From positions 1-64,000 of the forward strand of contig NZ_VTOX01000014.1 in the NCBI RefSeq assembly GCF_012184415.1: DNA of 64,000 nucleotides, in the 5' to 3' direction. This DNA comes from Ramlibacter lithotrophicus. GTDB taxonomy: Bacteria; Pseudomonadota; Gammaproteobacteria; Burkholderiales; Burkholderiaceae_C. The translations under genes were made by a program, and so were the position numbers. Each line of letters begins with the position of its first letter. The stretch's first letter is position 1. The notes under the pieces were generated by a model. That model did no database searches and had not been told where the DNA came from. It saw only the letters and a list, made by a program, of their open reading frames with translations. Shown piece after piece: positions 19,326-38,023 of this stretch.

Positions 19326-19498
19326 TTGGTCTTCCTTTCGCTCTCGAATGCTCTGATGGCATCACTGTGCCAGCGCTCGAGCAGGCAAAGGTTGATATTT
19401 CTCATGGCATCAGGCCGTATCGCGGGATGGGAGGAGCCCTCGCGCAGGTGGTACAAACGGGCCGGACGCCCCACCCGACACCACCCGAAGGCCCGCCC

Positions 19499-20992
19499 GT
19501 GAACCGCCCACCCGAACCCGCCGCCCTCGAACGCGCCGAACTCCAGTCCCGCACGGTGGCCGCGCTCGAGCCGCTGCTGCCGCGCGGCGGGCTGCTGTGG
19601 AACGCCGAGGACACGACGCCGTACGAATGCGACGGCCTCACGGCCTACCGGCAGCGCCCGCTGGTCGTGGCGCTGCCGGAGACCGACAGCCAGGTGCAGG
19701 CGGTGCTGAAGGCCTGCCACGGGCTGAAGGTGCCGGTCGTCGCCCGCGGCGCCGGCACCGGGCTGTCCGGCGGGGCCATGCCCCACGCCATGGGCGTCAC
19801 GCTGTCGCTGGCCCGCTTCAACCGCATCCTGAAAGTCGATCCGCGATCCCGCACGGCGCTGGTGCAATGCGGCGTGCGCAATCTCGCGATCAGCGAGGCG
19901 GCGGCGGCCCACGGCCTCTACTACGCGCCCGACCCGTCCTCGCAGATCGCCTGCACCATCGGCGGCAACGTGGCCGAGAACTCGGGCGGCGTCCATTGCC
20001 TGAAGTACGGGCTGACGGTGCACAACGTCCTGAAGGTGCGCGGCTTCACCGCCGAGGGCGAGCCGGTGGAATTCGGCAGCGACGCGCTCGACGCGCCGGG
20101 CTACGACCTGCTGAGCGCGATCGTCGGCAGCGAAGGCATGCTGGCCGTGGTGACCGAGGTCACGGTCAGGCTGGTCCCCAAGCCGCTGCTGGCGCGCTGC
20201 ATCATGGCCAGCTTCGACGACGTGCGCAAGGCGGGCGACGCGGTAGCGCAGGTGATCGCGGCCGGCATCATTCCCGCGGGCCTCGAAATGATGGACAAGC
20301 CGATGACCGCGGCGGTCGAGGATTTCGTCCATGCCGGCTATGACCTCGAGGCCGCCGCGATCCTGCTGTGCGAAAGCGACGGCACGCCCGAGGAGGTGGA
20401 GGAGGAGATCGGCCGCATGACCGACGTCCTGCGCGGCGCCGGCGCCACCGCCATCGCCGTGAGCCGCGACGAGGCCGAGCGACTGCGCTTCTGGAGCGGC
20501 CGCAAGAACGCGTTTCCGGCCTCCGGGCGGATCAGCCCCGATTACATGTGCATGGACTCGACGATCCCGCGCCGGCGGCTGGCCGACATCCTGCTGGCGA
20601 TCCAGCAGATGGAGCGGAAGTACGCGTTGCGGTGCGTGAACGTCTTCCATGCCGGCGACGGCAACCTGCACCCGCTGATCCTGTTCGATGCCAACGACGC
20701 GGACCAGCTGCGCCGCTGCGAGCAGTTCGGCGCCGAGATCCTGGAGACCAGCGTCGCGATGGGCGGCACCGTCACCGGCGAGCATGGCGTCGGCATCGAG
20801 AAGCTCAATTCCATGTGCGTGCAGTTCAGCGCCGCCGAGCTGGAGCAGATGCGCGGGGTCAAGCGGGCGTTCGACGGCGCGGGCCTGCTCAATCCGGGCA
20901 AGGTGATCCCGACGCTCAATCGCTGCGCGGAGTACGGAAAGATGCTGGTGCGCGGCGGCCGGCTCGCGCACCCCGACCTGCCACGCTTCTAG
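19499..20992 (+). CDS. glcD: FAD-linked glycolate/D-lactate oxidase subunit GlcD
   Basis: GlcD is the flavin subunit that oxidises glycolate or related 2-hydroxy acids. The 497-residue protein has the FAD-binding PCMH part (VPVVARGAGTGLSGGAMP, about residues 77-95; CTIGGNVAENSGG, about 158-170; GSEGMLAVVTEVTV) and the C-terminal FAD-oxidase part. The latter has VFHAGDGNLHPLI, the catalytic histidine region VTGEHGVGIEK and GLLNPGKVIP near the end. I chose the GTG at 19499 because it gives the E. coli length (499); upstream in-frame ATGs at 19367 and 19427 add non-conserved residues. No glcE or glcF follows, so it is either a solitary oxidase or pairs with subunits elsewhere. Confidence 0.9.
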   Translation: MNRPPEPAALERAELQSRTVAALEPLLPRGGLLWNAEDTTPYECDGLTAYRQRPLVVALPETDSQVQAVLKACHGLKVPVVARGAGTGLSGGAMPHAMGVTLSLARFNRILKVDPRSRTALVQCGVRNLAISEAAAAHGLYYAPDPSSQIACTIGGNVAENSGGVHCLKYGLTVHNVLKVRGFTAEGEPVEFGSDALDAPGYDLLSAIVGSEGMLAVVTEVTVRLVPKPLLARCIMASFDDVRKAGDAVAQVIAAGIIPAGLEMMDKPMTAAVEDFVHAGYDLEAAAILLCESDGTPEEVEEEIGRMTDVLRGAGATAIAVSRDEAERLRFWSGRKNAFPASGRISPDYMCMDSTIPRRRLADILLAIQQMERKYALRCVNVFHAGDGNLHPLILFDANDADQLRRCEQFGAEILETSVAMGGTVTGEHGVGIEKLNSMCVQFSAAELEQMRGVKRAFDGAGLLNPGKVIPTLNRCAEYGKMLVRGGRLAHPDLPRF

Positions 20993-21023: not shown

Positions 21024-24000
21024 TCACGGACGGCAGGTGTCGCCGTCGATGACGATGTCACCGGAGCGGTTGCCGTCCTTGTCCTTTTCGCGCTCCTTCT
21101 CCCGCTCCTCGCGGCGCTCCTCGCGCGCCTGCTGCTCCTGGTGCTGCTGCTCCTGCAGCAGGAGCGTGACGAAGGTATTCAGCGGATTGCTCGCCAGCTC
21201 CGACACCACCTGTTCCGCCAGCGCCTGGTTGCCGCCGAGCATCGGCGCGATTCGACCGGCGGCTGAACCGGAGGGAGCCGGCGTGGGCGCGGGCGTGGGC
21301 GGTGGCAGGGGCTCCGGCGTCGGGACAGGCGTCGGCGCCAGGGTCGGCGGTGGCGTCGGTCCCGGCGTCGGGACCGGCGTGGGCACCGGTGTCGGCTGCG
21401 GTGTCGGCTGCGGTGTCGGCTGCGGTGTCGGCTGCGGTGTCGGCTGCGGGGTCGGCTGCGGGGTCGGCTGCGGGGTCGGCGCGATCGTCGGCCCGGGAGT
21501 GGGCTGCGGCGTCGGCGACGGGGTGGGCTGCGGCGTCGGCTGCTGCGTCGGCGCGATGGTGGGCTCCGCCGTAGGCTGCGGCGTCGGCGCGATCGTCGGC
21601 GCGATGGTGGGCTGCGCAGTGGGCTGCACCGTCGGAGCGATCGTCGGTTCCGCTGTCGGCTGAGGGGTCGGCGAAGGTGTCGGCAAAGGTGTGGGTGACG
21701 GCGTAGGTGACGGCGTGGGTGACGGCGTAGGTGACGGCGTAGGTGACGGCGTGGGCGACGGCGTCGGCGAAGGAGTAGGAGAAGGTGTGGGCGACGGCGT
21801 CGGTGCCACCGTCGGCGGCGGCGAAGGCTCCACCACCGGCGGCAAGGTCGGCGCGGGGGTGGCCACGTTCAACAGCACCGAGCCGAATGCCAGCGTGGCG
21901 CCGGTGACGTTGCCTGACAGCACCGGCAAGTTGCCGGTCGTCGCACCGGCGATCAGCGTGTAACTGCCCGGCGCAGGCTGGGTGGAGGCGGTCGCGACGA
22001 TCACGCTGGTGCCGCCGCCGGTCGGGAAATTGACGCTCCCGGTGACGTTGACCGCGTCGTGGCTGCTGCCGTTGAAATCGAACTGCAGGCTGGCCCCGCT
22101 CAGCACGTCGAGATTGCCGGTGACGTTCACCGAGCCGATGGTGCCGGGCCCGCCCGGGGACAACACGCCCGCAACCGCGAGGTCACCCGCGCCGCTGATG
22201 CCACCGGCGGCGTTCACGCTGCCGCCGCCCAACCCGAGCGTGGCCGACCCGAACCCGCTCCACTGCAGCAGGCCGTCGCTGGTCGCCTGGCGCAAGTCCA
22301 GCACGGCGGCGCCGCCGGGACCGTCCAGCACCGCCCCGGCACCCGCCTGCAGGTTGCCGACAACGAAGGGCGATCGCGCCGTGGCGAGGTACACGCCCCC
22401 CGTTGCCCGCGACCACACGCCGCCGCTGGTGTTCACCGTGAGTGGCAGGGTGCTGGCGCCGATCGGCCCGGCGCTCGCGTCCAGGACCACGGAGCCGTCG
22501 ACCGTCGCGTCGATCGTGCCGGGCAGTTCCTCGACGCCCGATGGCTTCGCTTCGATGGAAGTCGCGGCGACGCTGACGGCGGCGGTGCCCGGCGCGCTGC
22601 CGGTGGCGCTGCTTTCCGACCGCAGCAATTCGATCACCGCTGCACCGGCGCCGCCGTACGAGATCCTGCCAGGGGCACGCGCAGAGAGCATCGTGGAGCC
22701 GGTGTTGCTGTTCGCCAGCGCGATGTCGCCGGCGCTGGTCCATGCATTCAGCGCGGCGAAACTGTTCATGGGATGCACCAGCGCGACGCTGCCGGCGGCG
22801 TCCAGCGCCAGTGTCGAAGCAGCGATGGGCGCGGTCTGGGTGATGCCGCCCAGCCCCTGGCGCAGCGTCACGGGCAGCAGGCCGCCGGCGCCGTCGATCC
22901 CGGCCATCCCGTCCACGGTTCCCACCGCCAGGTCACCCGAGCCGCCGCCGTTCGAGAAGCGGAAGCCCGCGCCAGCCGTGTCGCTCGCCCGGCCGCTGAT
23001 GGTCTGGACGTCGTTCCACTCGTCGAGGGCGACCGTGCCGGCCGAAAGGTTCAGCTGACTCACGGCCAGCACCGTGCGAGCGCCCTGCGTGATGCTGCCG
23101 CCGCTGCCCGTGACGAGGCTCAGCGCCGGGGCACCCGTGATCGTGACGAAACTTGTTCCGTCAGGGTTGTCCCCTTCGATCGCGATGTTGCTGCTGCCCA
23201 GCAGGCCGGGGCCGACCATGACGGTGCCGGCGGAAATGCGGTTCAACTCCGCCGCGCTCAACGTGAGCTTGCCAGCCTCATCCGAGCCCCCCAGCGAGAT
23301 GGCGCGTTCAAGCGTGGCGGGCGTCACGTGCACGCGCCCCGCCCCCGCCTGCACGGCCCCAGCGATCTGCATCCGGTCGGCAAACAGGTCGACCTGGCCG
23401 CCACCGGTGCTCTTCACCGCGGATCCCGCGTCGATCGAGATCCGGGGGGGCGCGGTGGGCGCTGGGGAAGGCAGCGTCTCGGGCAGCAACGCCTGGAGCG
23501 AGAGTGACCCAGCCCCCTGGTTCTCGATGGTGGCGCCGCGCAGCGACAGGTCGCCGCCGGTCGCCTGCAGCAGCAGCGAGGAGGTGGCGGAAAGTCCCTG
23601 GACGTTGCCCACGTCGACCGCGCTGGTGCCGGTGGCCGTCGTCCCGGTGATAAGCAGGCTGCCTGCCTTGATCGTCACCGGCGCCGTGCCGGTGCTCGGC
23701 ACGCCGGCCCCGTCCCAGGTACTGGTGTCGAGCCACACGCCCGCGCCGGTCCCGGCCTCGCCGTTGATGACCAGCGTGCCGGTCCCGGCGTTGAGCGTGG
23801 AGCCGCCGCGTACCTCGACGCCGAGCGCCGCCGCCGCATTGCCGCCCGCGACGACAAGCATCCCGCCGCCGCTGGCGAGGGTGCTGGCGCTGACGTTCAG
23901 GATCGAATCGCTGGCCACCGTCAGCCCGCCGCCCCCGCTGCTGGCGCTGCTTTCGTGGAGGTGCAGGCCCAGGTAGGGGCTGGCGCCGCTTACCGTCAGC

Positions 24001-27000
24001 GAGCCGCCGCTGGTCTCCAGCGCCGAGCCTCCGTAGATCAGCGCTCCATACCTGTCGCCCGTGCCGACCACGGTCACCGGGCCCGCCGTTCCGCTCGCCG
24101 AGAGCGTGCTGCCGGCAATGCGTACGCCGGCGCCGGTGTCGGCGCTGCTCGAGAACCCTTGCACGGCGACGCCGGCTGCGCCGGCCGAAGCGACGGTCGA
24201 GGACTGCAGCACGACGGCGTCGAAGGCCGGCGCGGTCGTTCCACCGGCGCGCAGGAGTGCCTGTCCGGCGGAGGAAGCGACCGTCGAGCCGTCGACGTTC
24301 ACCTGCGCGTTCGGCGCCTCCAGCTTGATGTCGCCGGCTGCAGAGAGCGAGGAGTCCGACACGAACGTGCCGGACGGGAACGTCGCATCGAGGAAAGTGG
24401 TAAAGGTGCCGCCGCCGAGGAGCGACACGGCACCGGTGGCCGCAATGATTTCGGACGCTGAGGCCAGGGACACCTTGCCCGCCGGTGCCGTGACGTCGAC
24501 GTCGCCCTGCGTCGCCGTGAGCTTCGCGCCGGTCAAGGCCACCTGGGCATCGGTGCCCGTCGCCTGCAGCACGATGCCGCCACTGGCGGCCGTCAGCTGC
24601 GCGCCGCTCACGGAAATGCCGTCCTCGGCCTGGATGCTGACGGTGCCGCCGCTGATGGTGGTAGCGGACACGGCCACGGTGCCCGCCACCACGCTGACGC
24701 TGCCGGTGCCCGCGCTCACCGGGGCGATGACCTGCAGCGTGGCGCCGGAGGCCTTCAGGTCGAGCGGCTGGTCGGTGGTCCAGACGCCGTCGATGCCATC
24801 CACGCCGCTCGCGATCTTCAGCGCGGTGCCGTTCGCGAACACGAACGGGTGGTCCATGTTGCCCGGATCGCCGGGCGCGGCGGCGAGGTTCGCCACCTGG
24901 TTCGCGGCCGTGCCCAGGTCGGCGCCTTTCACTGCCTGCACCGCGAGGTTCGTCGCCGTGATCGCAGCGTCGCTGGTCTGCGTGATCCTTTCGCCGGACT
25001 GGAGCGACAAGGTCGGCAACGGCGCGACCAGTGGCGCGACGACGGCGAGGGGGCCGGAAGCGAGCGAGCCGATGCGCAGCACGCCGGTGCCGGTGAGCTT
25101 CGCCAGTTCGTCCTTCGAGATCTGCAGCAAGGTGCCGTTCGCATCGCAGCAGTCGTTGAGCTCGACGGCGCGGCCCGCCGTGGCCGGCTTGAGCCACATG
25201 AGGCCGCTGCCCGAGTCGATCGTGCTGGCCGAGAACAGGTCCAGCCTGTCGCCTTGCAGGGTGATTGCGCTCCCCGCGAGCGAACTGCCCACGGACAGCA
25301 TGGATCCCGTCCCGGCCGCCGCCAGTGTCAGCGCTCCGCTCGCCTGCACGCTGGCGTTGACGGCGAGGCTGCGGGCGGTGATCAGCGACACGTCGCCCGC
25401 GGTGTTTGAAAGACCACCCGTGGGCAACAGCGCCGCGACCGCGAGCGTGCCGGTGCCGTCGTGGGCGAAATCCACGTTGCCGGCGCCGGAATTGGCGGCG
25501 CTGAGCCGGGCGGCGTCGATCCACATGGGACCGCCGTAGCCGTCGCCGATGCCGCCTGTCGCCACGACCTTGAGGTCGTCGGCGACGAGCGTGCTGTAGG
25601 TCTCGAGCGAGACGGGCCCCGACGCCGTCAGCGCCACGTCGCCCTTGCCGCCGCCGGCCCCGGCCGCGCTGATGTTGCTGCCCGTCAGGATGTCGCCGAT
25701 GAGGCTGAAACCGCCCAGCTTGATGGAGGACCCACCCGCGGTCAGCGTGATGTCGCCGCCGGCGCCGGCCGCCGGCGTGGTGCTGATCTCGCTCACCATG
25801 ATGCTTCCCGCCGCGCCGCCGGCGTTCAGGTTCACGGCGCCGCCCTTGGTCGCGATGCCCCCGGCTTCGATCTTGCCGCCCAGGGTGCTCATCGTCACGC
25901 CGCCGCCGCCGGTGGCGATCCAGACGTCCGGACCCTTGATGCTGCCGCCGGCCGAAACGGTGAAGGACTGGCCCGGACCCACGCCCGCGAGGTTCAACGT
26001 GCTGTCGGCGAGTGGCTGGAAGATCACGTCGCGATCCGCCCACAGCGTCACGGTGCCGCTCAGGGCTTCGAGGGCCTGCTCGGAGATCGTCGCACTCGAA
26101 GTGGAATCGACGTCCGCGAGATCGACCGCGTTGTCCGCGAGCGCTGCGTCGTTGGCGCCGCCTGTCCCGTCGGCGATGGTGATGTCCAGCGGATCGAGCA
26201 GCAGCGAGCCGGCCATGCCTTGCGGCGCCGTCGTATCGACGGTCGCACGGAACACCAGTCGCCTCTTGCCGGACGTCTCCACGGCGCCGCCGTTGCCGCC
26301 GTGCACGCCGCCCCTCGATTCGATCTGCCCGCCCGCTCGCGTCAGCTCGTCGGACCACACCACCACGGTGCCGCCGTCACCGCGCTCCAGCGCATTGGCC
26401 CGGATCACGGCACCGGCTTCGACGGTGGTGTTCTTCGCATTGCGGATGCCCGCGTCGCCGCCTTGCCACCCGCCGCCGACCAGGGCCTGTCCACCGCCTT
26501 CGGCTCCGCTCACGTCGACGACCGCGCCGCTGCGCACGATCAGCGATTCGGCAGTGGCACGCACTTCGCCACCGCGCCGTCCCTGCGTCGCCGCGACGGT
26601 ACCCGAGATCTCCGCGCTCCGGCCGCCGGTCAGCACCACCTTCCCGCCGCTGGCCGTCACGCCCTTGGCCTGGACCAGTCCGCTGTGGTTCAGGTGTCCG
26701 GCGAAGATCCCGACCGCATCTCCTTGCAGCGTGCCGAGATTGATCGCCTGGTCGCCGGGAGCCTGCACCTGCAGCCAGATCCCCTCCAGGCCGCGCCCCG
26801 TGAGTTCCACCCTCTGTCCGGCAGCCAGCAGCGTGGCGCCCTCGGGGGAGCGCAGCAGCGCGGGCGTGCCGACCTGCACCCGCGGCGCGACCAGCACCAG
26901 GTCACCGCTTCTCGCGAGCACGTGCCCGTCGACCTGGAGCACGCCGGCGGTGGCCGCGTCGCCGCCGAACATGAGACGCCCCGCCACCGCGTCGGCATCG

Positions 27001-27512
27001 GCCATGCGCAGCGTCGAGGCCGTGAAGCCGGCAGTGTCGACGACGGCGCCGGCGCCCACGGCGATCCCGGACGGGTTCACCAGCACCAGCCGGCCGTTGG
27101 AGGCCAGCGTGCCGTAGATCGCGCTCGGATTGCCGCCGAGGACGCGATTGATCGACGTGCTGCGTGCGTCAGGCTGCCGGAACTGCGTGGTCGTGCCGGC
27201 CGGCACCGAGAAGCTTTGCCAGTCGATGGCCGAGTGACGCGTGCCCGGGCCGTTCAGCGTGGTCACGACCAGCGTACTGCCTTGCTGCTGGAGGCTGGCC
27301 TGCCCGTGGATCGCGTGCGCCCCCGCCGGTTGCCCGAACGCAGTGGTGCCCACGGACATGAAGGCCGCGGCCACCGCCAGCGCGAGTCCGGCCGGCCGGA
27401 AGCCCGCGGCAATCGGGTGGATCGCCGGAGCGCGGCTGGGCCGCGGAGCGGCGACTGGCGGCGCGCGGCGCCCGGCCGGCGCAGCCGCCGGCGCGATGGT
27501 CGAATGGTCCAC
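21024..27512 (-). CDS. giant filamentous-haemagglutinin-like exoprotein 1 with Thr-Pro stalk
   Basis: A 2162-residue predicted two-partner-secretion (TpsA) exoprotein. It has a long signal region (residues 1-65; hydrophobic core [19 protein letters not shown]) and an N-terminal haemagglutination/TPS domain (about 66-330) with [15 protein letters not shown] and [10 protein letters not shown] (146 onward). Residues 330-1880 are a beta-helix-type repetitive passenger. A Thr-Pro-rich stalk (about 1890-2077; PTPS and PTPQ units) leads to a conserved C-terminus with [15 protein letters not shown], a charged [12 protein letters not shown] coil and the end IDGDTCRP. The start is GTG with a GGGAG site. 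It is a tandem paralogue of the next gene. No TpsB pore gene lies in the window. It probably acts in adhesion or biofilm formation. Confidence 0.85.
21388..21471. repeat. seven tandem 12-bp units in the stalk of exoprotein 1
   Basis: Five perfect copies of GGTGTCGGCTGC are followed by two GGGGTCGGCTGC copies, in frame, each encoding one Pro-Thr-Pro-Gln step on the minus strand. Because the unit is a multiple of three, slippage would change stalk length without breaking the reading frame. Confidence 0.9.
21694..21765. repeat. six tandem 12-bp units in the stalk of exoprotein 1 (PTPS type)
   Basis: Near-identical units GGTGACGGCGTA or GGTGACGGCGTG (last copy diverged) encode Pro-Thr-Pro-Ser steps on the minus strand. 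This is a second, independent array in the same stalk, separated from the PTPQ array by less regular Thr-Pro coding DNA. Confidence 0.9.
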
Positions 27513-27670
27513 GGATGCTCCCGCAGTAGCCTCCCCGAACCTGCTCTGATGGGGCTCTTGCCGCTACATCCGTGGCCCCGCAGATCAACTTAGCACACGG
27601 CTCCTGGAGCGGCAAATCAGGCGGCGCGCCCGCCCCGGGACCGGCGGCTTGCGGGCCGGCCAGGCCCGGC
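27513..27670 (-). promoter_or_regulatory. spacer between the two exoprotein genes with candidate promoter of exoprotein 1
   Basis: This 158-base gap separates the tandem genes. TAGCACACGG (27591-27600; CCGTGTGCTA on the minus strand) sits 79 bases before the GTG of exoprotein 1. The same ten bases occur 78 bases before the GTG of exoprotein 2. On the minus strand TGC-TAAGTT resembles an extended -10 box. A six-base GC hairpin (27652-27657 with 27663-27668) follows the stop of exoprotein 2 but lacks a T-run. Confidence 0.45.
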
Positions 27671-30600
27671 TCAAGGACGGCAGGTGTCGCCGTCGATGAC
27701 GATGTCGTCGGAGCGCTTCTCGTCCTTGTTCTTGTCGCGTTCCTTCTCCCGCTCCTCGCGGCGCTCCTCGCGTGCCTGCTGCTCCTGGTGCTGCTGCTCC
27801 TGCACCAGCAACGTGACGAAGGTCTGCAGCGGGGTGTTGCTCTCCGTGACCACCTGTTCGGCCAGCGCCTGGTTGCCGCTCAGCATCGGCGCGATGCGGT
27901 CGGCGGCCGACCCCGTCGGCGCCGGCGTGGGCGCGGGCGTCGGCGGTGGCAGGGGCTTCGGAGTCGGTGCCGGGGTCGGCACTGGCGTCGGCGCCGGGGT
28001 AGGGGCCGGCGTAGGGGCCGGCGTAGGAGCCGGTGTAGGAGCCGGCGTGGGGGCCGGCGTGGGAGCCGGCGTAGGAGCCGGCGTAGGAGCCGGTGTCGGT
28101 TCCGGTGTGGGCGCAGGCGTCGGCTGCGGGGTCGGGGCCGCCGTTGGTGGCGGGGTCGGCGCGGGCGTCGGCCCGGCCGTGGGCTCCGGCGTCGGTGCGG
28201 GAGTGGGTGCCGCCGTCGGCGCCGGCGTGGGGGCTTCGGTGGGTGCCGGCGTCGGCGCGGCCGTGGGCTCCGGCGTCGGTGCGGGAGTGGGTGCGGGCGT
28301 CGGTGCCGGCGTGGGAGCTGCCGTCGGGGCCGGGGTCGGGGCCGGCGTGGGCGCCGCCGTGGGCTCCGGTGTCGGTTGTGGTGTCGGCGAGGGAGTCGGC
28401 GCCACGGTAGGCTCGGGCGTGGGCTCCGCCGTCGGCGGGGAACTGGTCGGCGGTGGGCTGGTCGGCGCCGGCGTGACGACGGCGTTGGCGATCTTGACCA
28501 GGCCGGCGTAGCTCACCGGAATGGTGGTCGTGGTGAAGGCGCCGCTCACCGCACCGGCGGTGGCAATGACGTTGAACGCATCGCCTTCGTTGGGCGCGTA
28601 GGTGCTGATCACCTGCAACGTCCCGCCAAGGGCCACGTTGCCGGTGACGTTCAGCTGGTCGTACCCGGTGCCGGGGGCGTTGCTCTCGACTTCGACCTGC
28701 AGCGTCCCCGCCGCACCCTGCTGATAGTCGCCCTGGATGGACAGGATGCCGGGCGAGTTGCCGGGAGCGACGATGCCGTTGTTGACGACGTTGGCGAGGA
28801 TCGTGCCGGCCCCCTTCAGCGTGCCCTGGTTCGAGAGGCTGCCCACCCCATTGGAGAAGCCGTCATAGGTGTCGATGTCCAGGGACCCGTTCACCGTGAG
28901 TGTCCCGCTGTTCTGCAGCTCGCCCACCACGTAGGTCGAGAAGTCGAGGTTGTCGGCGAGCAGCAGGTTGCCCGGGTTGATCCATCGGCCGTACACGGTG
29001 AGGTCTTCGGTCACGCTGGTGCCGCCGGCCGCCGAGGCAGTGAAGATGCCGGTGGCGCCCTGGGTTCCGGGCAGTCCTGGGGACGGACTGGGCGCGGGAG
29101 CAGGACTGCCGGTCGGGGATGGGGTGACGGTGGGCGCAGGATAGCCGGGGGCGCCGCCGCCGACGTCGACCACGCCGGCAAGAGCCAGCGTCGGTGCCGT
29201 GGTGGCGTCGGGAGGAGCCAGAACGGTGATGGTCACGCTGCCACCGGCCCCGCCGTTGCCGGCCGTGGCGCTGCCGATGCTCTCGGAGCCGCCGTCGCCG
29301 CCGGGGGCGTACAGGTAGCCGCCCAGGCTGCTGGAGCCCTTCGCGGTGACGGTGATGCTCCCGCCCGCGCCGCCATTGCCGCCGAAGTCGGCGGACGTCG
29401 TGCCGGAGCTGTATCCGCCCCAGCCGCCAGGCGCCGCCACGTAACTGCCGCTGCCGGCCTGCACGCCACCGTTGTCGCTCGTGATGTTGATGACGCCGCC
29501 ATCGCCACCGGTGCCGCCATGCGTGGTGCCGTCGCCGCCGTCACCGCCGCTGGCGCGCAATTGCGACGACGCAAGCGTCACGCCGGCGTCGCCGATGACG
29601 TTGATGGTGCCGCCCTTGCCGCCCGCGCCTCCGGCACCGGCGTAGGCATAGCCTCCGTAACCGCCATCTGCAGAGAACCAGACGGCCGGTTCGATCGCCA
29701 CCTGCGGCCCGGTGACCGTGATGGTCCCACCCGCTCCACCCGCGCCGGCGCTCCCGGCGTCGGCGTAACCGCCGCCCCCGCCCCTGACGTCCAGATCCGC
29801 CCCTTCGCGCAGCTGCAGCGTGCCGGCCGTCTGAGTGAGCGCGATCGTGCCGCCCACGCCGCCACCGCCGCCTGCCGTCAGGGACCCATAGCCGCCCCAG
29901 CCGCCGCGGGCCGAAGCGTCCCGGATGAGGAGTTCATCTCTCGCCTGGACCGTCACCGTGCCGCCAGTGCCACCCGTTCCGGCGCCGTCGGCGTCGCCGC
30001 CGTCCGCGTCGAGCCTGCCGTAGACCAGCGCCCTGCCGGTCAGTGCAGTGATGGTGATGGTTCCACCCGCGCCGCCCGCGACCGGCGAGGGGTTCCAGGA
30101 GTCTCCGCCATACACGCCGATGTAGCCGTAGCCTTCGCCTTCGACGTTGCCGACACTGACGTCCTGGCCGCTGCTGATGGTCACCGTGCCGCCCTTGCCA
30201 CCGCCGCCGGTGTCGCTGTCTTCGCCGTAGGCGTAGATGGCGTCGACCGCGACCGGGCCGGCCGAAGTGAGCGTGACGGTGCCACCGGCGCCGCCCTTGC
30301 CGCCGCCGGCCAAGGAGCTGTCTTCGGCATAGCCCCCGCCCACGCTGATGTACTGGATACCGAGGCCGGTCGCCGCGTCCACGGTCACCGTCCCGCCGTT
30401 GCCGCCGCTGCCGCCGTAGCTGTCGCCGCCGTCGGCCTCGAGCCATCCGCGCACCGAGACGGCGCCGCCGGTGCTCTCCATCACGATGGAACCGCCGTCG
30501 CCGGCCCGGCCGCCGGCAGCATCGCTGGAGCCGCCGCCCACATCGATGCCAGTCGAATACGTGGTGCTGCCGAGGACGATGTCCTGCGCGGCGGTAATGG

Positions 30601-33600
30601 TGACCGAGCCGCCCTTGCCGCCTGGACCGGTGTCGCTGTCGCCGCCTTCACCGTCGATCCAGCCCACCAGCGTGACGCCGCCGGCGCCGGACCGGATCGT
30701 GACGCCGCCGCCGGCGCCGCCGGCCGCCGTCACCTCACCAGCATTCGAGGAACCTCCGCTCACGTCGATGTGGGCGGTGGCGGCGTCCGTTCCGATCACG
30801 ACCTGCTGGGCGGCGCTGATTCCCACGGTGCCGCCGGTGCCGCCGGGACCTTCGTCGCCCCAGCCACCGCGCGCATACAGGTTGCCGGTCAGCGTCACGG
30901 CACCGGCGGTCGACTCGATGGTGACCTGTCCGCCGTTCCCGCCGTCCTGGCCGGAACTCTCGATCCACCCCGCGTCCCCGCCGTCGACGTTGATGCCGCC
31001 AGCGATGGTCAGTGCGTCCCTGGCGAGGACCGTTACCGTGCCACCCTGGCCGCCCGTCTGGCCATAGCCGCCCTCGGCCCGGAGCTGCCCGTACACCGCG
31101 ACCTTGCCTTGGGAAGCGTCCAGCTTGACGAGCCCTCCCAGGCCGCCAACCAGGCCGCCGCCGCCGCCGGCGTCGACATAGACGGATCGCCCGTACGCCA
31201 GCTCCGCGGACGGGAACTCGCCGAGCAGGATGTCCTGCCCCGCGACGATCGTCACGCTGCCGCCATCGCCCCCATTGGCGTTGCCGCTGCCGCCGCCGTT
31301 GACCAGCAGTTCATCGCCGATGACCACGGATCCCGCGGTGGCGGTGATGGTCACCGCGCCGCCCTTGCCACCGGCCGCCTCGGACGAATAGCCGCCGGTC
31401 GACTCGACGTAGTACAGGTCGACCTTCGTTCCGGCCGTCGCGGTGACGTTGACGGAGCCGCCATCCGCACCGGCGCCGCCGCTGGCGTAGATGGAGTGGC
31501 CGACGATGCTGCCGGCGGTGGACGTCACGGTCACGGCGCCACCGGCGGCGCTGCTCGACCACCCGTCAGTGTCGATCGAGCCGAACGAGATTTCGTCTTG
31601 CGCGTCCAGCATCACGGTGCCGGCGACTCCGCCGCCGGTCCGGAAATTGCCTTGTCCCTTGATGGCGCCGGCCGTGCCGCCAAGAACCTCGTCGCCCGCC
31701 GTAACGGATATCCCACCTCCGGCCGCCGAGACAGTGGGCGCGGACGCACCCGGGAACACGACGTCGCCGTAAGCACGAATGTCGACGTTGCCGTCGGTGG
31801 AAGTCACATCGGCCCGCACCGACAAGGCGCCGGACGACGCCTCCAGCGTCACCGACTTGCCCTTGATTGCCTGCTCGACGTCCAGCGTGACCGGACGTTC
31901 GGCGTCGCCCTTCAGACTGCTGGAGAGCTTGAGCGATCCGGCCGCTTCGATGCCTGCATACCCGGCGACGCTGGAGACCAGAATCGGGTTGGAGCTCGCG
32001 TACCTGAAATCACCGGCGGTGGCGCGACCCGCGACGACGCCGGTGGTGTTGCCGCCGGTCGCCGTGGTCAGGTCGACCGAGGCGCCTTCCGCGAACACTT
32101 CGCTGCCGGCAAGACCGCCGGCGGCCGTCTGGGTCAGCGCGCCGCTGGCCGACAGCCGGACGAGGCCACCGAGGGCGCGGTCCGTGAAGCTCGCCATGAC
32201 ACCGCTCGCGCCCTCCTGGCCGCTGCCGATGCTCAAGTCGCCGCTGTTGGAGAACTTGAACGAGTGGTTGGTCTCCACGGTGCCGGCGCGGCCGGCCAGC
32301 GTGGCCACCTCGTTGGACGCCGCAGTCAGGTCGACGTCGCCGCCCGCGATCACCGTCAGCGTGTTGCTGGCACTGACCGCACCGCCGTTGCTCTGCGTGA
32401 TGCCGGCGCCGGAGCTGGTGGTTTTCAGCAGCACCTCGCTGCCGTTCACCGGGGCGTCAAGGACCAGCCCGCTTTCCGCCTCGATGCTGACGGCGGCGCC
32501 GCCGCCGGTCGTGACCGCCCCCGTGACGTTGATCGTGCCGAAACCCGTCGAGCGGATCGACACCGACGAATCGGGTGCCGCCTGGCTGACGCCGGCCAGC
32601 TCCCAGGACGCAACGGGTGCCCGGCCCACGAAAACAATGGATCCGGTGCTGCCGGTCTGCGTGGCCGAGAACGAATTGATCGTGTTGTCGCCCTGCAGGT
32701 CGATCGACTGCGCTGCCGCGACCTCCAGCGTGTGCGTCGCGACCGTCGTTCCCGGCCCCTGGGTCACGCTGCCAGTCTCGGCTTTCAGGCCGACGCTGCC
32801 GCCGCCGACCCCGGTGTCGATCGCCTGAATCCCGTCGGCGAGCACGAGGTTGCCGGCCAGGGCGCGCAGGTTCACCGCCTGGTTCTGGGCCTTGACCCCT
32901 TCGGTCAAGCCGATCTTGCCGACCGCGAATCCTTGCGAATTGGTGAAACTGAACCCGCCGGCAGCCGCCGATCCGGCCAGTACGCCGACGCTGTTGCCGA
33001 TGTTGTCCAGCGTCACGCTGCTCTCGCGCGACAACGCGACCAGGCTGGCCGCCGTGATCGGCTCCGTTTGCGAAATCGGACCCTTGGCATCGAGCGTCAA
33101 TCCGCCGGCACCCGTCGCGACGATCGGTGCATTGATGGCGATCTCGCCGTCGGCCTCCAGGGTCAGACCATGCGGCGAGGCCCATTCCATCTTGCTCAAG
33201 ACCTTGATGTACCCCTCGTTCGCTCCATCGTTGGCGGTCGTGAGCGTTACGGCGGCCGTCTCAAGCGAGCTCTTGAGAACGCTGGGCAAGAGAAGCGATT
33301 CGGACGCGGCGCCGTCCGGCAGGGCCTCCGCGACGTACATGTTCGTCGGATCGAGCAGCAGGCTGCCCGTGCGCCCTTGCGGCGCGCGCGTGTCCACCTG
33401 GCCGCGCATGTCGAGGTAGTGACCGGAGGTCTCGATCCTGCCGCCGTCGCCGCCGCCCGCGCCGCCGCGCGCGGACAGCGAACCCCGGACGCGCGTCGCC
33501 CCATCGGACCAGGCCACGATGGTGCCGCCGTCACCGCTTGCGATCGCGTCCGCCTTGACCTGCACCCCGGCCTCCAGCGTGGTGCGCTGCGCATTTGCGA

Positions 33601-34657
33601 TCCGTGCGTCCTTGCCCTGCCAGCCACCGCCCAGCAGCGCTTCGCCGCCGCCGTGCTGGCCGCTGACGTCCACCAGCGCATTGCCCCGGACCATGAGGTC
33701 GGGCGCCGTGGCGTGGACCCGGCCACCCTTGGTCCCCTGGGTCGCGGCGATCGTGCCGGCGATCTCGGCGGCGCCGGTGGCCTTCAGCACCACCTTGCCC
33801 CCGTCGACCGTTACGCCGGTCGCCTGCACCAGTCCGCTGTGCTGCAGCTGCCCGGCAAAGATGGCGACGGCATCGCCTTGCAGCGCGCCGAGGTTCACCG
33901 CCCGGTCGGCGGGCGCCTGGACGTGCAGCCGGATCCCCTCCAGGCCGCGCCCCGTCACTTCGACCGACTGGCCCGCCGCCAGCAGCGTGCCGCCGCCGGG
34001 GGCCTGCACCAGCGCGCCGCTGCCCACGTGGATCTGCGGCGCAATGAAGACGGCATCACCCTGCCGCGCGATCACGGTGCCATCCACCTTGAGCGCGCCA
34101 GCGTCTCCACCGCCGAACATCAGCCGCCCGGCCAGCGCGTCGGCCTCGCTCATGCGCAGGGTGGAGGCCGTGAAGCCGGCGGTGTCCACCACCGCGCCAG
34201 CGCCCACGGCGATGCCGGACGGATTGACGACGACCAGCCGGCCGTTGGAGCTCAGCGTGCCGAAGATGGCGCTGGGGTTGTTGCCCAGAACCCGATTGAT
34301 CGAGGTGCTGCCCGCGTCGGGCTGGCGAAAGTGCGTCAGGCTGCCGCCGGGCACCGAGAAGCTCTGCCAATTGATCGCCGAATGCCGCGACCCCGGTCCG
34401 TTCTGGGTCGTGACGACGAGCGAATTGCCTTGCTGCTGCAGGTTGGCCTGCCCATGGATCACCTGCGCGCCGGCTGGCTGCGCCAGCACGTCGCCGTAGG
34501 GAACGAAGGCTGCCGCCAGCGCCAGGGCCACACTGGCGGGACGGAACCCGGCGGCCAGCGGGTGACGCAGGCTGCGGCTGGGGCTTGCCTGGACCGGACG
34601 CGACGCGCGGCGCGGGACGGCGGCCGCCGCCGCTGCCCTGATGTTGGTCTTATCCAC
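27671..34657 (-). CDS. giant filamentous-haemagglutinin-like exoprotein 2 with Gly-rich beta repeats and Thr-Pro stalk
   Basis: A 2328-residue paralogue of the preceding exoprotein. Its signal region is about residues 1-60. The TPS domain has [15 protein letters not shown] and [10 protein letters not shown] (145 onward, the same spacing). Residues about 1080-1840 form a very regular Gly-rich beta-helix (units like [11 protein letters not shown], dozens of copies). A passenger-associated segment follows ([19 protein letters not shown]). A Thr-Pro-Ala stalk (about 2062-2249) leads to the same [21 protein letters not shown] coil and IDGDTCRP end. It also starts at GTG. No TpsB gene is nearby. 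Likely surface-exposed or secreted adhesin; the ligand is unknown. Confidence 0.85.
27990..28097. repeat. about nine tandem 12-bp units in the stalk of exoprotein 2
   Basis: Units of the form GCCGGCGTAGGA or GCCGGCGTGGGG, with one- or two-base differences, encode Pro-Thr-Pro-Ala steps on the minus strand. Similar but less regular units continue to about 28470. Unit identity differs from that of exoprotein 1, so the arrays expanded separately after duplication. Confidence 0.85.
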
Positions 34658-35146
34658 GGATGTATGTCCCCGAAGTGGCCTTTGGAAGGAGGCTCCCGAA
34701 AGGCGCGCAGGTACCCCCCAGTCTGCTGTAAAGGTAGCACACGGTTACACGACCGACGCATCGCGAGGACCGTGTTGCAGAAGTTCCGTGCGCTAGTTCA
34801 CCAGCAGGTCCCATCGTGGCAACACCTTTTGTTACTGATCTGTTGAAGCCACGACGCCGCACGGCAGAGCACGGCCGCCTGAGGGCGCGCGACGGGGACG
34901 ATCCCCCGGCGCCGTTTTCGACGGAACTGGACAAAGAGCGGGTCACGATGTTCCTCCCGAAAAAGGAACGGCGGCTCTGCCACGCAGGCGCGCGCTGCCC
35001 CTCCTCGCGCTGAGGTGGGGCGCAACGCTAACACGGCGTTACAGGCGTCCGCAATCTCGTAAACGCCACGCCGCGGCGGAAAATCCGTTGCCTTCGCTGG
35101 TTACCATCGGACGAGCAGCGTCGGGATGGCGCTGCCCGTCGGTTCC
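34658..35146. promoter_or_regulatory. 489-base divergent intergenic region between exoprotein 2 and the GT60-like gene
   Basis: This is the longest non-coding stretch in the window. It holds TAGCACACGG (34735-34744), duplicated upstream of exoprotein 1 at the same distance, and a possible extended -10 (TGC-TACCTT on the minus strand). A small inverted repeat AACGC-taacacg-GCGTT (35024-35040) lies on the GT60 side. A 65-codon frame (34816-35013) has no protein-like features and I do not call it. Confidence 0.45.
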
Positions 35147-36109
35147 ATGAGCATCTTCGTCAGCATCGCTTCCTATTGCGATCCCGTCCTGGGCTTCACG
35201 CTCGGGCGGGCGCTGGCGACCGCGCGCCGGCCGGACAGCCTGCACTTCGGCATCGTCGACCAGAGCCCTGCCGCCGCGCCCCAACCGGCCGCGGCGCAAC
35301 TGCAGCCGGCGCGCCTGAGTTACGTGAAGCTCGAACCCGTTTACGCGCGCGGGCCGTGCTGGGCGCGGGCGCTCGCGATGTCGCTGTACGAGGGAGAGGA
35401 CTGGTTCTTCCAGATCGACTCCCACATGGATTTCGATGCCGGCTGGGACGAGCGGCTGATCGACCAGGCGAGCGCGCTGGTCGCCGGCCGGCGCGGCGTC
35501 GTGCTGTCCTCGTATCCGAACTCCTTTGTTTTCGACCAGGGCCGGCCGGTGCGCCGGCCCGCCACCGACAAGGTGCTGGCGCATGTCGTGAAGCCGGGCG
35601 CCGCCTTCGATCCGCAGCACCCGGTGCTCGGCTTCGAAGCTCACCCGGCGCCGGTCGACCAGCCACTGCCGGGTTTTCACGTCGGGGCAGGCTGCCTGTT
35701 CGCGCCGGGCAGCTTCGTCGATGCGTTTCCGTACGACCCCTGGTTCTACTTCCACGGCGAGGAGCAGGGGATTGCGATCCGGCTGTTCACGCATGGCTGG
35801 GACGTCTTCCACGTCCCGGGCCTGCCGGTCTATCACCTCTACAACAACCCGGACGCCGGGGGTCCGCCGCGGCCGATGCACTGGGATGCCGCGCACGAGG
35901 CGCTGCGGCAACGCACCTGGTGGAGCCTGGAGCAGCGCTCGCGTGCGCGGCTGGCGGCGCTCGTTGCCGGCCGGCCCATGGGCGTCTACGGGCTCGGGAG
36001 CGTGCGCTCCGTGGCCGACTACGCCACGTTCAGCGGGATCGACTACGCGGCCCGCACGATCGCGCCGCGGGCCTACAAGCCGCTGCTGCCGGAACCCGTG
36101 TCCGCCTGA
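35147..36109 (+). CDS. GlcNAc-transferase family glycosyltransferase (PF11397/GT60-like)
   Basis: A 320-residue soluble GT-A enzyme with the family opening SIFVSIASYCDPVLGFTL and ARGPCWARALAMSLYEGEDWFFQIDSHMDF, whose D91-S-H93 is the metal/nucleotide-sugar motif. Later come HVGAGCLFAPGSF, DPWFYFHGEEQGIAIRLFTHGWD and LYNNP. Family members include the cytoplasmic Skp1 hydroxyproline GlcNAc-transferase of Dictyostelium and mucin Thr-GlcNAc-transferases of trypanosomes. It is divergent from the Thr-Pro-rich exoproteins, so these stalks are a tempting but unproven acceptor. The start at 35147 is preferred to the ATG at 35126 because the domain begins immediately. Its 3' end overlaps udg by 37 bases. 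Confidence 0.8.
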   Translation: MSIFVSIASYCDPVLGFTLGRALATARRPDSLHFGIVDQSPAAAPQPAAAQLQPARLSYVKLEPVYARGPCWARALAMSLYEGEDWFFQIDSHMDFDAGWDERLIDQASALVAGRRGVVLSSYPNSFVFDQGRPVRRPATDKVLAHVVKPGAAFDPQHPVLGFEAHPAPVDQPLPGFHVGAGCLFAPGSFVDAFPYDPWFYFHGEEQGIAIRLFTHGWDVFHVPGLPVYHLYNNPDAGGPPRPMHWDAAHEALRQRTWWSLEQRSRARLAALVAGRPMGVYGLGSVRSVADYATFSGIDYAARTIAPRAYKPLLPEPVSA

Positions 36110-36879
36110 CCGCGCAGCTGCTCGAGCGCCAGGCACAGGTCCGCCCACGCCTTGGCCTTTTCCGGCAGGTTGCGCAGCAGGTAGGCCGGGTGGTAGGTGA
36201 CGACCAGCGGCACGCCCTGGTATCGGTGCACGCGGCCGCGCAGCCGGCCGATCGGCTCGGCGCTCCCCAGCAGGGACTGCACGGCAAAGCGCCCCATGGC
36301 CAGGATGATCTTCGGCCGGAGCAACTCGACCTGCCGGCGCAGGAAGGGCTCGCACTGGGCGACTTCGGCCGGATCCGGGTTGCGGTTGCCCGGCGGACGG
36401 CACTTGAGGACGTTGGCGATGTAGACCTTGCGCTGGCGGTCGAGCCCGATCGCACGCAACATGTTGTCCAGCAACTTCCCGGCCTGCCCGACGAACGGCT
36501 CGCCCTGCAGGTCCTCCTGCTCGCCGGGCGCTTCGCCCACCACCAGCCAGTCGGGCTGCGGGTCACCGACGCCGAAGACCGTGTTGGTGCGGCTGTCGCA
36601 CAGGCCGCAGGCACGGCACTCGGTCACGGCCTGCCGCAGTTCCTCCCACGACAGCAGCGGCATCGCACCGGCCGGCGGCGTGGCGGTTGCCGCAGGCGAC
36701 GCGATTGGCTGCCGCGGCTGCGGCTGCACCGGAGCCGGGCGCGGGGCCGGTGATGGCGGCGCGCACTGCACTTGTGCGGGCGGCGTCCGCTCGGCGTGCG
36801 CAGGCGGTAGCACCGAAAACCCGGCCAACCCCATCTCGGCCAGCATCGCGCGGCGGCGCTCGTCGAGGGCCAGCGTCAT
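36073..36879 (-). CDS. family 4 (Fe-S) uracil-DNA glycosylase
   Basis: Removes uracil from DNA as the first step of base excision repair. The 268-residue protein has a Pro/Ala-rich N-terminal extension (about residues 28-75). The catalytic domain has CRACGLC (two Fe-S cysteines), [29 protein letters not shown] (motif A with GEAPG), [18 protein letters not shown] (the other two cysteines) and [11 protein letters not shown]. Long N-terminal extensions with linkers are common in proteobacterial homologues. It overlaps rimI by 4 bases (tsaB-rimI-udg operon) and its 3' end overlaps the convergent GT60-like gene. Confidence 0.93.
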
Positions 36880-37343
36880 AGCTTCAGGCTCATGACGACC
36901 GCGTTCTCGCGCTTGCCGGCGCCGGCGGGATAGTAGTTGCGGCGCTCGCCCACGCGGCGGTAGCCGTAGCGCTCGTACGTACGCTGGGCGTGGACATTGC
37001 TGGTGCGCACCTCCAGCCACAGCCATTGGGAGCCTTCGGCGCGGGCCCACAGCGCCAGGGCGTCGAGCATCAGGCGGCCCCAGCCCTGCCGCTGGTGTTC
37101 CGGCGCGACGGTGATGTTGAGCAGGTGCACCTCGTCGACCCCCTTCATCGCCACGTAATACCCCAGGAGCTCGCTGGCGGCCACCAGCATGCGGGCGTGA
37201 TAGCCGGCGCGCAGCGAATCGACGAAATTGCCCTGGGTCCACGGATGCGCGTACACCCGCTGCTCGAGGGCGACGACCGGCCCCAGCCGGTCCTCGGACA
37301 TGGGCTCCAGGGAGGCTTCGGCGGTGTTCGGCAAGGCACTCAT
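36876..37343 (-). CDS. rimI: ribosomal-protein alanine N-acetyltransferase RimI
   Basis: A 155-residue GNAT enzyme that acetylates the N-terminus of ribosomal protein S18. It has the acetyl-CoA loop in [15 protein letters not shown] (Q/RxxGxG/A pattern, about residues 80-93), preceded by VHLLNITV and followed by [31 protein letters not shown], the typical RimI C-terminal strand-helix. It sits between tsaB and udg with 4-base overlaps at each end, a widespread tsaB-rimI arrangement. Confidence 0.92.
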
Positions 37344-38023
37344 TGACTCGGCATGGCGCGGGCGGCGGCGCGTTCGGCCGTCGTCTGGGCCACTTTATCG
37401 CGAATGTACAGAGGCAGGGCGCCGTCGGCGGCCACGGCCTCCCCGGCGCCGAGGAGTGCGGGCGCGAGCCGCAGCAGCGCGGTGGCGCTCGGCAAAGCGT
37501 CGACCCGCGGCCCCGGCGGCAGGCGGCCGCCGTAGGGGGTGAAGACGTTGCCTGCCATCGCCCAGCCGGGCGGCACTGCCACGGTCTGCGGCGCATGCAG
37601 GGCGATCCCGCCATCACGGTGCCACACGCGGCCATCCCACTCGTAGGCAGCGACATAGACCTCGTCCATGCGCGCGTCCAGCAGCGCCACCACCCGGGTC
37701 ACGCCGGCCCGCGCTCGCGCATCCTCCGCCACGGCAAGCAAGGTTTCCACCGGCAGCACCGGGACGTTGGCGCCGAAGGCGAGCCCCTGCGTCACCGAAC
37801 AGGCGGTGCGCAGGCCCGTGAACGAGCCCGGACCGCGGCCGAACACGATCGCGTCGAGCTCCGGGAGCGTCAGGCCGGCCTGCGCCAGCAGGCGCTGGAT
37901 GGCGGGGATGAGGGCCGCGGAGGCTTGGGCGCCACCCGGCGCTTCATGCCGGAACACCTCGCCGCCGCGCTGGACGGCGATGGCGAACACTTCGGTACTG
38001 GTGTCGAGGGCGAGCAGGTTCAA
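37340..38023 (-). CDS. tsaB: tRNA threonylcarbamoyladenosine synthesis protein TsaB
   Basis: TsaB scaffolds TsaD and TsaE in transfer of the threonylcarbamoyl group to A37 of tRNA. The 227-residue ASKHA-fold protein shows LALDTSTEVFAIAVQRGG, the VFGRGPGSFTGLRTACSVTQGLA block (about 61-83) and LLDARMDEVYVAAYEW. The start is TTG at 38023. It opens the tsaB-rimI-udg operon and is divergent from dacB with 50 bases between starts. The same pathway's TsaC is also in this window. Confidence 0.94.
   Translation of the reverse strand: MNLLALDTSTEVFAIAVQRGGEVFRHEAPGGAQASAALIPAIQRLLAQAGLTLPELDAIVFGRGPGSFTGLRTACSVTQGLAFGANVPVLPVETLLAVAEDARARAGVTRVVALLDARMDEVYVAAYEWDGRVWHRDGGIALHAPQTVAVPPGWAMAGNVFTPYGGRLPPGPRVDALPSATALLRLAPALLGAGEAVAADGALPLYIRDKVAQTTAERAAARAMPSQ

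Follow-up and report, generated by a model that had tools for sequence, protein, structure and literature searches.

In the HMW1A-HMW1B-HMW1C system of Haemophilus influenzae, a glycosyltransferase gene lies beside a TPS exoprotein gene, and the enzyme acts in the cytoplasm before its substrate is exported. The locus described here, which lies in the window (the whole 64-kb stretch of Ramlibacter DNA that was analyzed), has the same gene neighborhood and is predicted to share the cytoplasmic, preexport action. The HMW1C family also includes, as here, members without an adjacent substrate gene (PMC3983070, in excerpt). However, HMW1C is a GT41 (GT-B) enzyme that modifies asparagine in NxS/T sequons with hexose, whereas the enzyme in the window belongs to PF11397, is GT60-like, and is predicted to act on threonine or hydroxyproline; moreover, unlike at the HMW1 locus, the tpsB gene lies elsewhere and long PT stalks are present in the exoproteins. 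The PF11397 domain and its DxH motif are instead shared with the GT60 polypeptide alpha-GlcNAc-transferases, namely, Gnt1 of Dictyostelium and Toxoplasma and ppGlcNAcT of Trypanosoma cruzi, although the enzyme in the window is bacterial and its gene is linked to those of secreted adhesins. In the Skp1 pathway of prolyl hydroxylation and glycosylation, Gnt1 works together with PhyA, and two bacterial relatives of our enzyme, perhaps three, fuse prolyl 4-hydroxylase (P4H)-like and GT60 domains; unlike in that pathway, the candidate substrates here are exported repeat proteins rather than Skp1, and the P4H of the window's genome is unlinked. Finally, the Gram-positive serine-rich repeat glycoproteins, such as Fap1, are described in literature excerpts as adhesins whose low-complexity repeats are glycosylated intracellularly before export, but they use other transferases and another export route, and their repeats are rich in serine rather than PT.

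The original prediction described two giant TPS-domain proteins with Thr-Pro stalks, and both open reading frames were present on the minus strand. Exoprotein 1 (P0001; positions 21024 to 27512) has 2,162 residues and comprises, in order, a TPS domain, a long passenger, a Thr-Pro stalk, and a charged C-terminal tail ending DGDTCRP. Its TPS secretion domain spans residues 63 to 307 (positions 26592 to 27326) and matched PF05860 at 80.5 bits, against a cutoff of 33.5 bits; the stalk of 204 residues, 46 of them threonine, is encoded at positions 21258 to 21869, and the 77-residue tail, with a cysteine near its end, at positions 21027 to 21257. Exoprotein 2 (P0002; positions 27671 to 34657) has 2,328 residues, with a TPS domain at residues 61 to 302 (positions 33752 to 34477; 78.4 bits), a 194-residue stalk that also contains 46 threonines (positions 27902 to 28483), and a 76-residue tail closely resembling that of exoprotein 1 (positions 27674 to 27901). 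Both proteins also matched the NCBIfam model TIGR01901 (adhes_NPXG), and their TPS regions are 68% identical. Long stalks were thus confirmed, but the length of 185 residues first given for them was not, since the present rule yields 204 and 194. Each stalk holds 45 PT dipeptides; threonine makes up 22.5 to 23.7% of the stalks versus about 9% of the rest of the exoproteins, and proline makes up 43 to 44% versus 3 to 4%. Proline precedes 45 of the 46 stalk threonines in each exoprotein and stands at position +3 from 46 of 46 and 45 of 46, respectively, a pattern that recurs in the autotransporters, an FHA giant, and an Aliarcobacter protein discussed below. When codons four places apart in the stalks were compared, identity was only 0.40 to 0.58 at codon position 3, compared with 0.76 to 0.84 at positions 1 and 2, indicating that the stalks are not fresh DNA expansions.

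The transferase gene lies on the plus strand (positions 35126 to 36109), divergent from exoprotein 2 across an intergenic region at positions 34658 to 35125. This gap is 468 bases when counted from 35126; the spacing of 490 bases given originally holds if translation starts at the eighth codon (35147), where several close homologues start. The slot that contains the three genes is bordered on one side by a FAD-linked oxidase gene (positions 19367 to 20992, plus strand) and on the other by an open reading frame of the uracil-DNA glycosylase superfamily (positions 36073 to 37656, minus strand), which overlaps the transferase 3' end by 37 bases. PF11397, at 164.5 bits against a cutoff of 21, was the sole Pfam match of the transferase at an E value of 0.01, and D98 and H100 of the DxH motif were invariant in alignments of 16 and 31 sequences, bearing out the GT60-like identity. 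The protein is predicted, from a reading of its N terminus, to be soluble. Searches by sequence with alignment A1 found no solved structural relative at E values up to 1, and the single structure match obtained with alignment A2 (E value of 0.38) was implausible. GT60 and GT27 enzymes carry a DxH motif and glycosylate serine or threonine (PMC7185993, in excerpt), and the known role of the GT60 family concerns protein acceptors (PMC6939170 and PMC8724618, both in excerpt). Five of eight plasmid matches were annotated just as "GlcNAc-transferase family protein," and among the matches listed from open-license PMC articles, represented by their titles and the starts of their abstracts, we recognized none in which a bacterial GT60 enzyme modifies exoprotein stalks.

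No ShlB/TpsB match was found within the 64-kb window, as originally stated. The profile search of the whole genome identified one PF03865 match, on another contig and with a POTRA_2 domain, and no PF05860 proteins beyond the two exoproteins. The local absence of a TpsB gene may be accounted for by a single unlinked TpsB, whose pairing with the exoproteins is putative. We propose, as a tentative explanation whose chances we put a little below even, that the GT60-like enzyme O-glycosylates the stalks of the TPS exoproteins in the cytoplasm, as HMW1C does its substrate but from a different family. The transferase would place a HexNAc, probably GlcNAc, on threonines in the P-T-x-x-P stalks of both exoproteins while these are unfolded, ahead of Sec export; in its summary form the proposal allows stalk hydroxyproline as the alternative acceptor. 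The exoproteins would then exit through the TpsB encoded elsewhere in the genome, the extended glycosylated stalk would keep the passenger at a distance from the cell, and the C-terminal tail may remain at the outer membrane. The transferase would thus be a dedicated third partner of the TPS adhesin, and related enzymes may act on stalked exoproteins that are secreted by other routes.

Linkage between the enzyme and TPS exoproteins proved to be frequent in the genus. Among 60 Ramlibacter genomes surveyed, 44 encoded the enzyme and 16 did not, and 37 of the 44, including the window's genome, carried an adjacent and divergent enzyme/TPS gene pair. G006, a genome from outside Ramlibacter, has its TPS gene in the same slot but flanking the enzyme gene on the other side, in convergent order, which argues that the two genes do not travel as a single fixed unit. 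Two further enzyme-bearing genomes (G063 and G008) have a PT-stalked TPS gene on a different contig from the enzyme, and in G097 the enzyme occupies the slot without a TPS gene.

We compared the stalks of intact TPS homologues with at least 50% identity, 29 from enzyme-bearing and 23 from enzyme-less genomes, scoring as dense any PT stalk with at least 7 PT dipeptides in 50 residues. The count left out 12 frames truncated where a contig ends, along with 5 rows of under 50% identity or 200 aligned residues. Dense PT stalks occurred in 12 of 29 proteins from enzyme-bearing genomes and in 0 of 23 from enzyme-less genomes (Fisher test, P = 4.5e-4), in a test that ignores kinship and compares groups sampled differently, the former from loci around the enzyme and the latter from best TPS matches. 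Two of the 5 excluded rows were PT-rich TPS proteins (48 to 49% identity) of the enzyme-less genome G035; with these restored, the counts were 12/29 versus 2/25 (P = 0.006), and counted by genome they were 10/27 versus 1/14 (P = 0.064). By a rank test, the PT measure was similar in TPS proteins from genomes with and without the enzyme (P = 0.18), the contrast residing in the fraction of proteins that have dense PT stalks. The proposed tie between enzyme and Thr-Pro stalks was upheld by the dense stalks but not by the 17 of 29 homologues from enzyme-bearing genomes that have none. Proline content was rejected as the correlate of the enzyme, as it did not differ between the two groups of TPS proteins (P = 0.11); a 50-residue window with at least 25 prolines was present in 14 of 29 proteins from enzyme-bearing and 14 of 23 from enzyme-less genomes, the latter windows often being poly-Pro. 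Since Pro-rich stalks are no commoner with the enzyme, these data suggest that threonine is what tracks it.

An acceptor other than threonine must be weighed at this point. P4H could convert stalk proline to hydroxyproline, which the GT60-like enzyme would then cap, as occurs on Skp1 of Dictyostelium; this would yield bacterial counterparts of plant hydroxyproline-rich glycoproteins. We consider this unlikely, although Toxoplasma Gnt1 is a GT60 enzyme specific for hydroxylated proline (PMC6939170, in excerpt) and enzyme relatives fused to an oxygenase do exist. One (locus L165, genome G233) is a 641-residue frame whose transferase part is 57% identical to that in the window and whose PF13640 [2OG-Fe(II) oxygenase] match reached 61.6 bits, against a cutoff of 27 bits, but its contig is just 5 kb long and belongs to a metagenome-assembled genome. 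Another (L298, G577), placed apart from L165 in the enzyme tree, has a P4H-GT60-TTL order and scored 54.4 bits; the oxygenase match of a third (L299, G264) scored 24.6 bits, under the cutoff, and this gene adjoins RTX proteins with PT repeats and collagen repeats. With two P4H fusions above the Pfam cutoff and a third match below it, the mucin-like threonine of the original prediction is indistinguishable from a hydroxyproline acceptor. The window's genome itself encodes a P4H (G000:C13; 66.7 bits), unlinked to the enzyme. Co-occurrence of the two is uninformative, because P4H is near-universal: among the Ramlibacter genomes it was present in 43 of the 44 with the enzyme and 15 of the 16 without it and, in the family sample, in 17 of 17 and 152 of 183, respectively. 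A bacterial P4H also has another known substrate, EF-Tu (PMC7864055, in excerpt), and the equal frequency of Pro-rich stalks without the enzyme, which dense PT stalks do not share, argues against proline as the target.

The proposal that the enzyme glycosylates stalk threonines was also examined at loci beyond the TPS pair. A PT-repeat frame was found at 18 of 80 enzyme loci but in only 1 of 40 control regions of 20 kb, arbitrarily placed in six enzyme-bearing genomes (P = 0.003). The 18 loci comprised 6 with TPS proteins, 7 with FHA/DUF3739 giants accompanied by ExbB/ExbD genes, 4 with autotransporters, and 1 with an Aliarcobacter PT protein. RTX proteins with PT repeats adjoin the enzyme in G264, 1 of 20 distant enzyme loci, the other 19 having no PT frame of at least 7, and in G024 RTX proteins with ATEPP repeats lie beside it. 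Enzymes with repeat-bearing exoprotein neighbors occupy at least five separate branches of the tree, with differing exoprotein architectures, and so PT-repeat proteins of other builds do adjoin other enzyme branches. A small protein that seemed common to the autotransporter and FHA loci was discarded, as the two were unrelated by blastp. At 34 of the 80 loci no recognized exoprotein lay within 10 kb; among these, L207 adjoins a PT-repeat protein, L165 is the P4H fusion, and several are on short contigs. The original prediction would be refuted by a transferase widespread without the exoproteins, and this is in part what these 34 loci and the 17 TPS homologues without dense PT stalks present.

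A link in phages was equivocal. From 208 IMG/VR stretches with an enzyme relative, 80 were kept and compared with 148 enzyme-less loci anchored on two neighboring phage genes. A PT frame of at least 7 was present in 9/80 versus 3/148 (P = 0.005), of at least 6 in 11/80 versus 6/148 (P = 0.015), and of at least 8 in 2/80 versus 3/148 (P = 1.0). Within the anchored sets, from which five loci already in the phage set were excluded, the frame was found in 0/4 loci with the enzyme versus 3/74 without it for gene one and in 0/3 versus 0/74 for gene two. The phage data were therefore not taken as support.

The 34 loci without a recognized exoprotein would also fit an enzyme that targets a surface polysaccharide or some other acceptor, with TPS adjacency reflecting either synteny passed down by descent or a slot that surface genes have in common. 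The TPS-less slot of G097 is consistent with this, as are neighboring open reading frames in G038 and L204 that resemble, judged by their first residues alone, dTDP-sugar and UDP-sugar enzymes, and the fusion of some enzyme relatives to methyltransferase-like or kinase domains. However, repeat-bearing neighbors of varied architecture on at least five branches, and the excess of PT frames over control regions, are poorly explained in this way, and we regard it as quite improbable. That the enzyme modifies its TPS neighbor mainly outside the stalk, on passenger serine or threonine as HMW1C does on asparagine, with the stalk incidental, we find more doubtful still, because although genes for the enzyme and a TPS protein are more strictly linked (37/44) than PT stalks are present (12/29 homologues from enzyme-bearing genomes), the autotransporter, RTX, and Aliarcobacter neighbors have PT repeats in common but no TPS domain, and 23 of 23 close enzyme-less homologues lack dense PT stalks.

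The occurrence of enzyme relatives beside differently built but similarly stalked proteins suggests, at the level of gene neighborhoods, a little-explored route by which bacteria may coat adhesins with sugar, and a candidate bacterial substrate class can now be named for PF11397 enzymes. More speculatively, and in our view rather less probably than otherwise, Proteobacteria and at least one member of the Campylobacterota may share a stalk glycosylation system in which GT60-like enzymes, fused to P4H in some lineages, decorate P-T-x-x-P and collagen-like PTG surface repeats whatever the export route (TPS, autotransporter, or RTX/type I). Such repeats would be counterparts of mucins and hydroxyproline-rich glycoproteins, and the hydroxyproline-GlcNAc pathway of Skp1 might have had its prokaryotic precursor in this system. 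If this is true, one family of stalk-modifying enzymes would be common to several secretion routes, the P4H-GT60 chemistry of protists would be present in fused form in bacteria, and a compact enzyme would be at hand for the O-glycosylation of PT repeats at threonine or hydroxyproline.

Two giant exoproteins with two-partner-secretion (TPS) domains and Thr-Pro stalks, next to a divergent PF11397 enzyme, were the core of the original prediction, and all three proved real. The exoproteins are encoded on the minus strand (21024-27512, 2162 aa, and 27671-34657, 2328 aa), and the PF11397 protein of 327 aa (35126-36109, plus strand) is divergent from the second. Each exoprotein has a C-terminal stalk of ~200 residues (Pro 43-44%, Thr 22-24%), followed by a 76-77-aa tail that is very similar between the two. 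Because the third codon positions of the stalks have diverged while the residues still repeat, the Thr-Pro pattern is kept at the protein level. Searches of the genome found no PF11397 gene besides the one in the window and no TPS domains beyond the two exoproteins. The outer-membrane partner TpsB, noted as absent from the window, is indeed not encoded there, but the genome encodes one, unlinked to the exoprotein locus. The 3' ends of the transferase and uracil-DNA glycosylase ORFs share 37 bases (36073-36109). Both tails contain a Cys close to the C-terminal end (DGDTCRP; 21027-21257 and 27674-27901), a feature shared by many TPS homologues (endings such as CK, CKR or CTR). Mostly one Cys was seen in these tails, whereas the HMW1 tether is described as a C-terminal disulfide of two (PMC3983070).

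The enzyme passes both the PF11397 and the DxH tests for GT60 membership; DxH is the motif of this family, which is reported from prokaryotes and protists (PMC7185993). Among GT60 enzymes are Skp1 Gnt1, which acts specifically on hydroxylated Pro (PMC6939170), and a polypeptide GlcNAc-transferase of T. cruzi (PMC6939170, PMC8724618). HMW1C provides the precedent of a cytoplasmic transferase encoded beside a TPS adhesin, and some members of its family are described without a neighboring substrate gene (PMC3983070). The window enzyme is predicted to work alike but belongs to another family and has tpsB elsewhere in the genome; since the family test and the tpsB test both failed, it is not an HMW1C.

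Within the genus, the enzyme was present in 44 of 60 Ramlibacter genomes and TPS domains in 55 of 60. Enzyme and TPS genes are neighbors in 37 of the 44, divergent in every case, with the matches 154-535 bases apart; among the linked TPS genes, two look like remnants (G225, G256). Linked TPS genes in genomes G251 and G243 are short or split as listed. Seven genomes have the enzyme without a listed TPS neighbor (G222, G204, G205, G097, G242, G233 and G231), at a contig end in G222 and G242. In G097 it stands alone in the slot between uracil-DNA glycosylase and FAD oxidase, and in G006, from another genus, the TPS gene lies on its opposite side, convergent; the border genes were assigned by Pfam in the window and from first residues in these two genomes.

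For other lineages, one scan of named genomes yielded 197 relatives, the best 80 of which were retained and their neighbors assessed within 10 kb or to the contig end. A close TPS gene was found for 29 of these 80, an FHA/DUF3739, ExbB, ExbD or Porin_5 locus for 11, an autotransporter for 4 (locus L205 included) and a weak TPS match for 2. The expected co-occurrence holds for most enzyme-bearing Ramlibacter genomes; the other 34 of these 80 relatives had none of these neighbors within that range. PT frames (at least seven PT dipeptides in 50 residues) occurred at 18 of the 80 enzyme loci (6 TPS, 7 FHA, 4 autotransporter and 1 Aliarcobacter) versus 1 of 40 arbitrarily placed 20-kb control regions drawn from six enzyme-bearing genomes (p 0.003). 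The 18 may be an undercount, because the stalk of an FHA locus can sit beyond 10 kb, as in G144 (L086). The FHA giant of G133 (4088 aa, TPS and DUF3739 domains) has an internal stalk. The autotransporters of Rhizobium, Rhizobiales, Pacificibacter and Hyphomicrobium carry PT repeats ahead of a PF03797 barrel and are on the same strand as the enzyme. In Aliarcobacter, the enzyme gene (L207:1702-3711) comes after that of a PT-repeat protein and encodes a fusion, with a protein kinase domain (PF00069, 148.2 bits) N-terminal to the GT60-like one. A phylum-wide sample gave enzyme matches in 27 of 398 genomes, the window's included; a PT frame was found in 1 of 20 such neighborhoods (from 19 genomes), that of G264, which encodes RTX proteins with PTPTPEPT and collagen-like PTG repeats. 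An RTX giant of G024 has ATEPP repeats.

Several further settings were observed. The Roseateles-type locus L041 comprises a DUF3739 TPS giant, DUF2341-ExbB, two ExbD, TonB-like, Porin_5 and coiled-coil-like proteins and ends with the GT60-like gene; L042, L045, L046 and L048 are similar (Pfam was run on L041 and L081 only). At L300 the gene lies amid ORFs whose first residues resemble type VI secretion genes. In IMG/VR, 208 stretches encode GT60-like relatives (80 retained, up to 48% identical); among those inspected, some lie beside large PT-rich proteins.

The PT stalk is not constant among enzyme-linked TPS proteins. Among intact homologues of at least 50% identity from the fetched loci, a dense PT stalk, by the same threshold, was found in 12 of 29 TPS proteins from enzyme-bearing and 0 of 23 from enzyme-less genomes (Fisher p 4.5e-4), two groups sampled differently and uncorrected for kinship. 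Enzyme-less G035 encodes two PT-rich TPS proteins of 48-49% identity; their addition gives 12/29 versus 2/25 (p 0.006), and counting by genome gives 10/27 versus 1/14 (p 0.064), both likewise uncorrected. Pro-rich stalks as such (at least 25 Pro in 50) did not track the enzyme (14/29 with, 14/23 without), and those of enzyme-less genomes are often poly-Pro and once Ser-Pro. Therefore, stalk Thr is what tracks the enzyme, although there are clear exceptions. Outside this count, the linked TPS protein of G214, fetched later, has a PT stalk, and PT/TP counts found none in those of G208 and G255. One of the arbitrarily placed control regions, from G255, contains the gene of a 398-aa PT-repeat protein (L269:2471-3667), not linked to the enzyme, with a lipoprotein-like start, a long PTPAPT C terminus and no Pfam match, so that a substrate encoded elsewhere than beside the enzyme is possible.

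In the enzyme tree, the autotransporter-linked enzymes, four in all, group in a single clade (100/100), TPS-linked enzymes fall in a 35-row clade (6 rows without a recognized exoprotein) and FHA-linked enzymes in a 22-row clade (11 such rows); those of Aliarcobacter, G264 and G024 are placed elsewhere. Pro occupies positions -1 and +3 of almost every stalk Thr in both window exoproteins, in TPS homologue L137, in the autotransporters, and in the FHA giant and the Aliarcobacter protein; the collagen-like protein departs from this pattern. This pattern is a description rather than a test, because any period-four PT repeat would show it. Animal ppGalNAc-transferases prefer Thr with Pro at positions +1 and +3.

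Prolyl 4-hydroxylase-like (P4H) domains are fused to some relatives. One protein of G577 (L298:8545-11172) combines P4H (PF13640, 54.4 bits), GT60 and tubulin-tyrosine-ligase-like domains, and in G264 a weaker match to a 2OG-oxygenase (24.6 bits, below the cut-off of 27) comes after GT60. Locus L165 (G233:C268), from the same genus, encodes a P4H fusion (61.6 bits) whose transferase part is 57% identical to the window's; after it comes another GT60, which has a methyltransferase-like domain. A distant GT60-like group (L212-L233, L237-L240, L165:3017-4597) has a C-terminal stretch resembling class-I methyltransferases, some members being longer still; Pfam, run on L165 only, gave matches below cut-off. 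The fusions point to a coupling of hydroxylation and GT60 chemistry in some bacteria but do not establish it for the window's genome, which has one P4H match, unlinked and 30% identical to the fused P4H of L165. P4H is near-universal in the genus and family, and a known bacterial P4H substrate is EF-Tu (PMC7864055). Taken together, the gene-context argument has exceptions but draws support from more than one locus, and it makes it plausible that the GT60-like enzyme O-glycosylates the Thr-Pro stalks.
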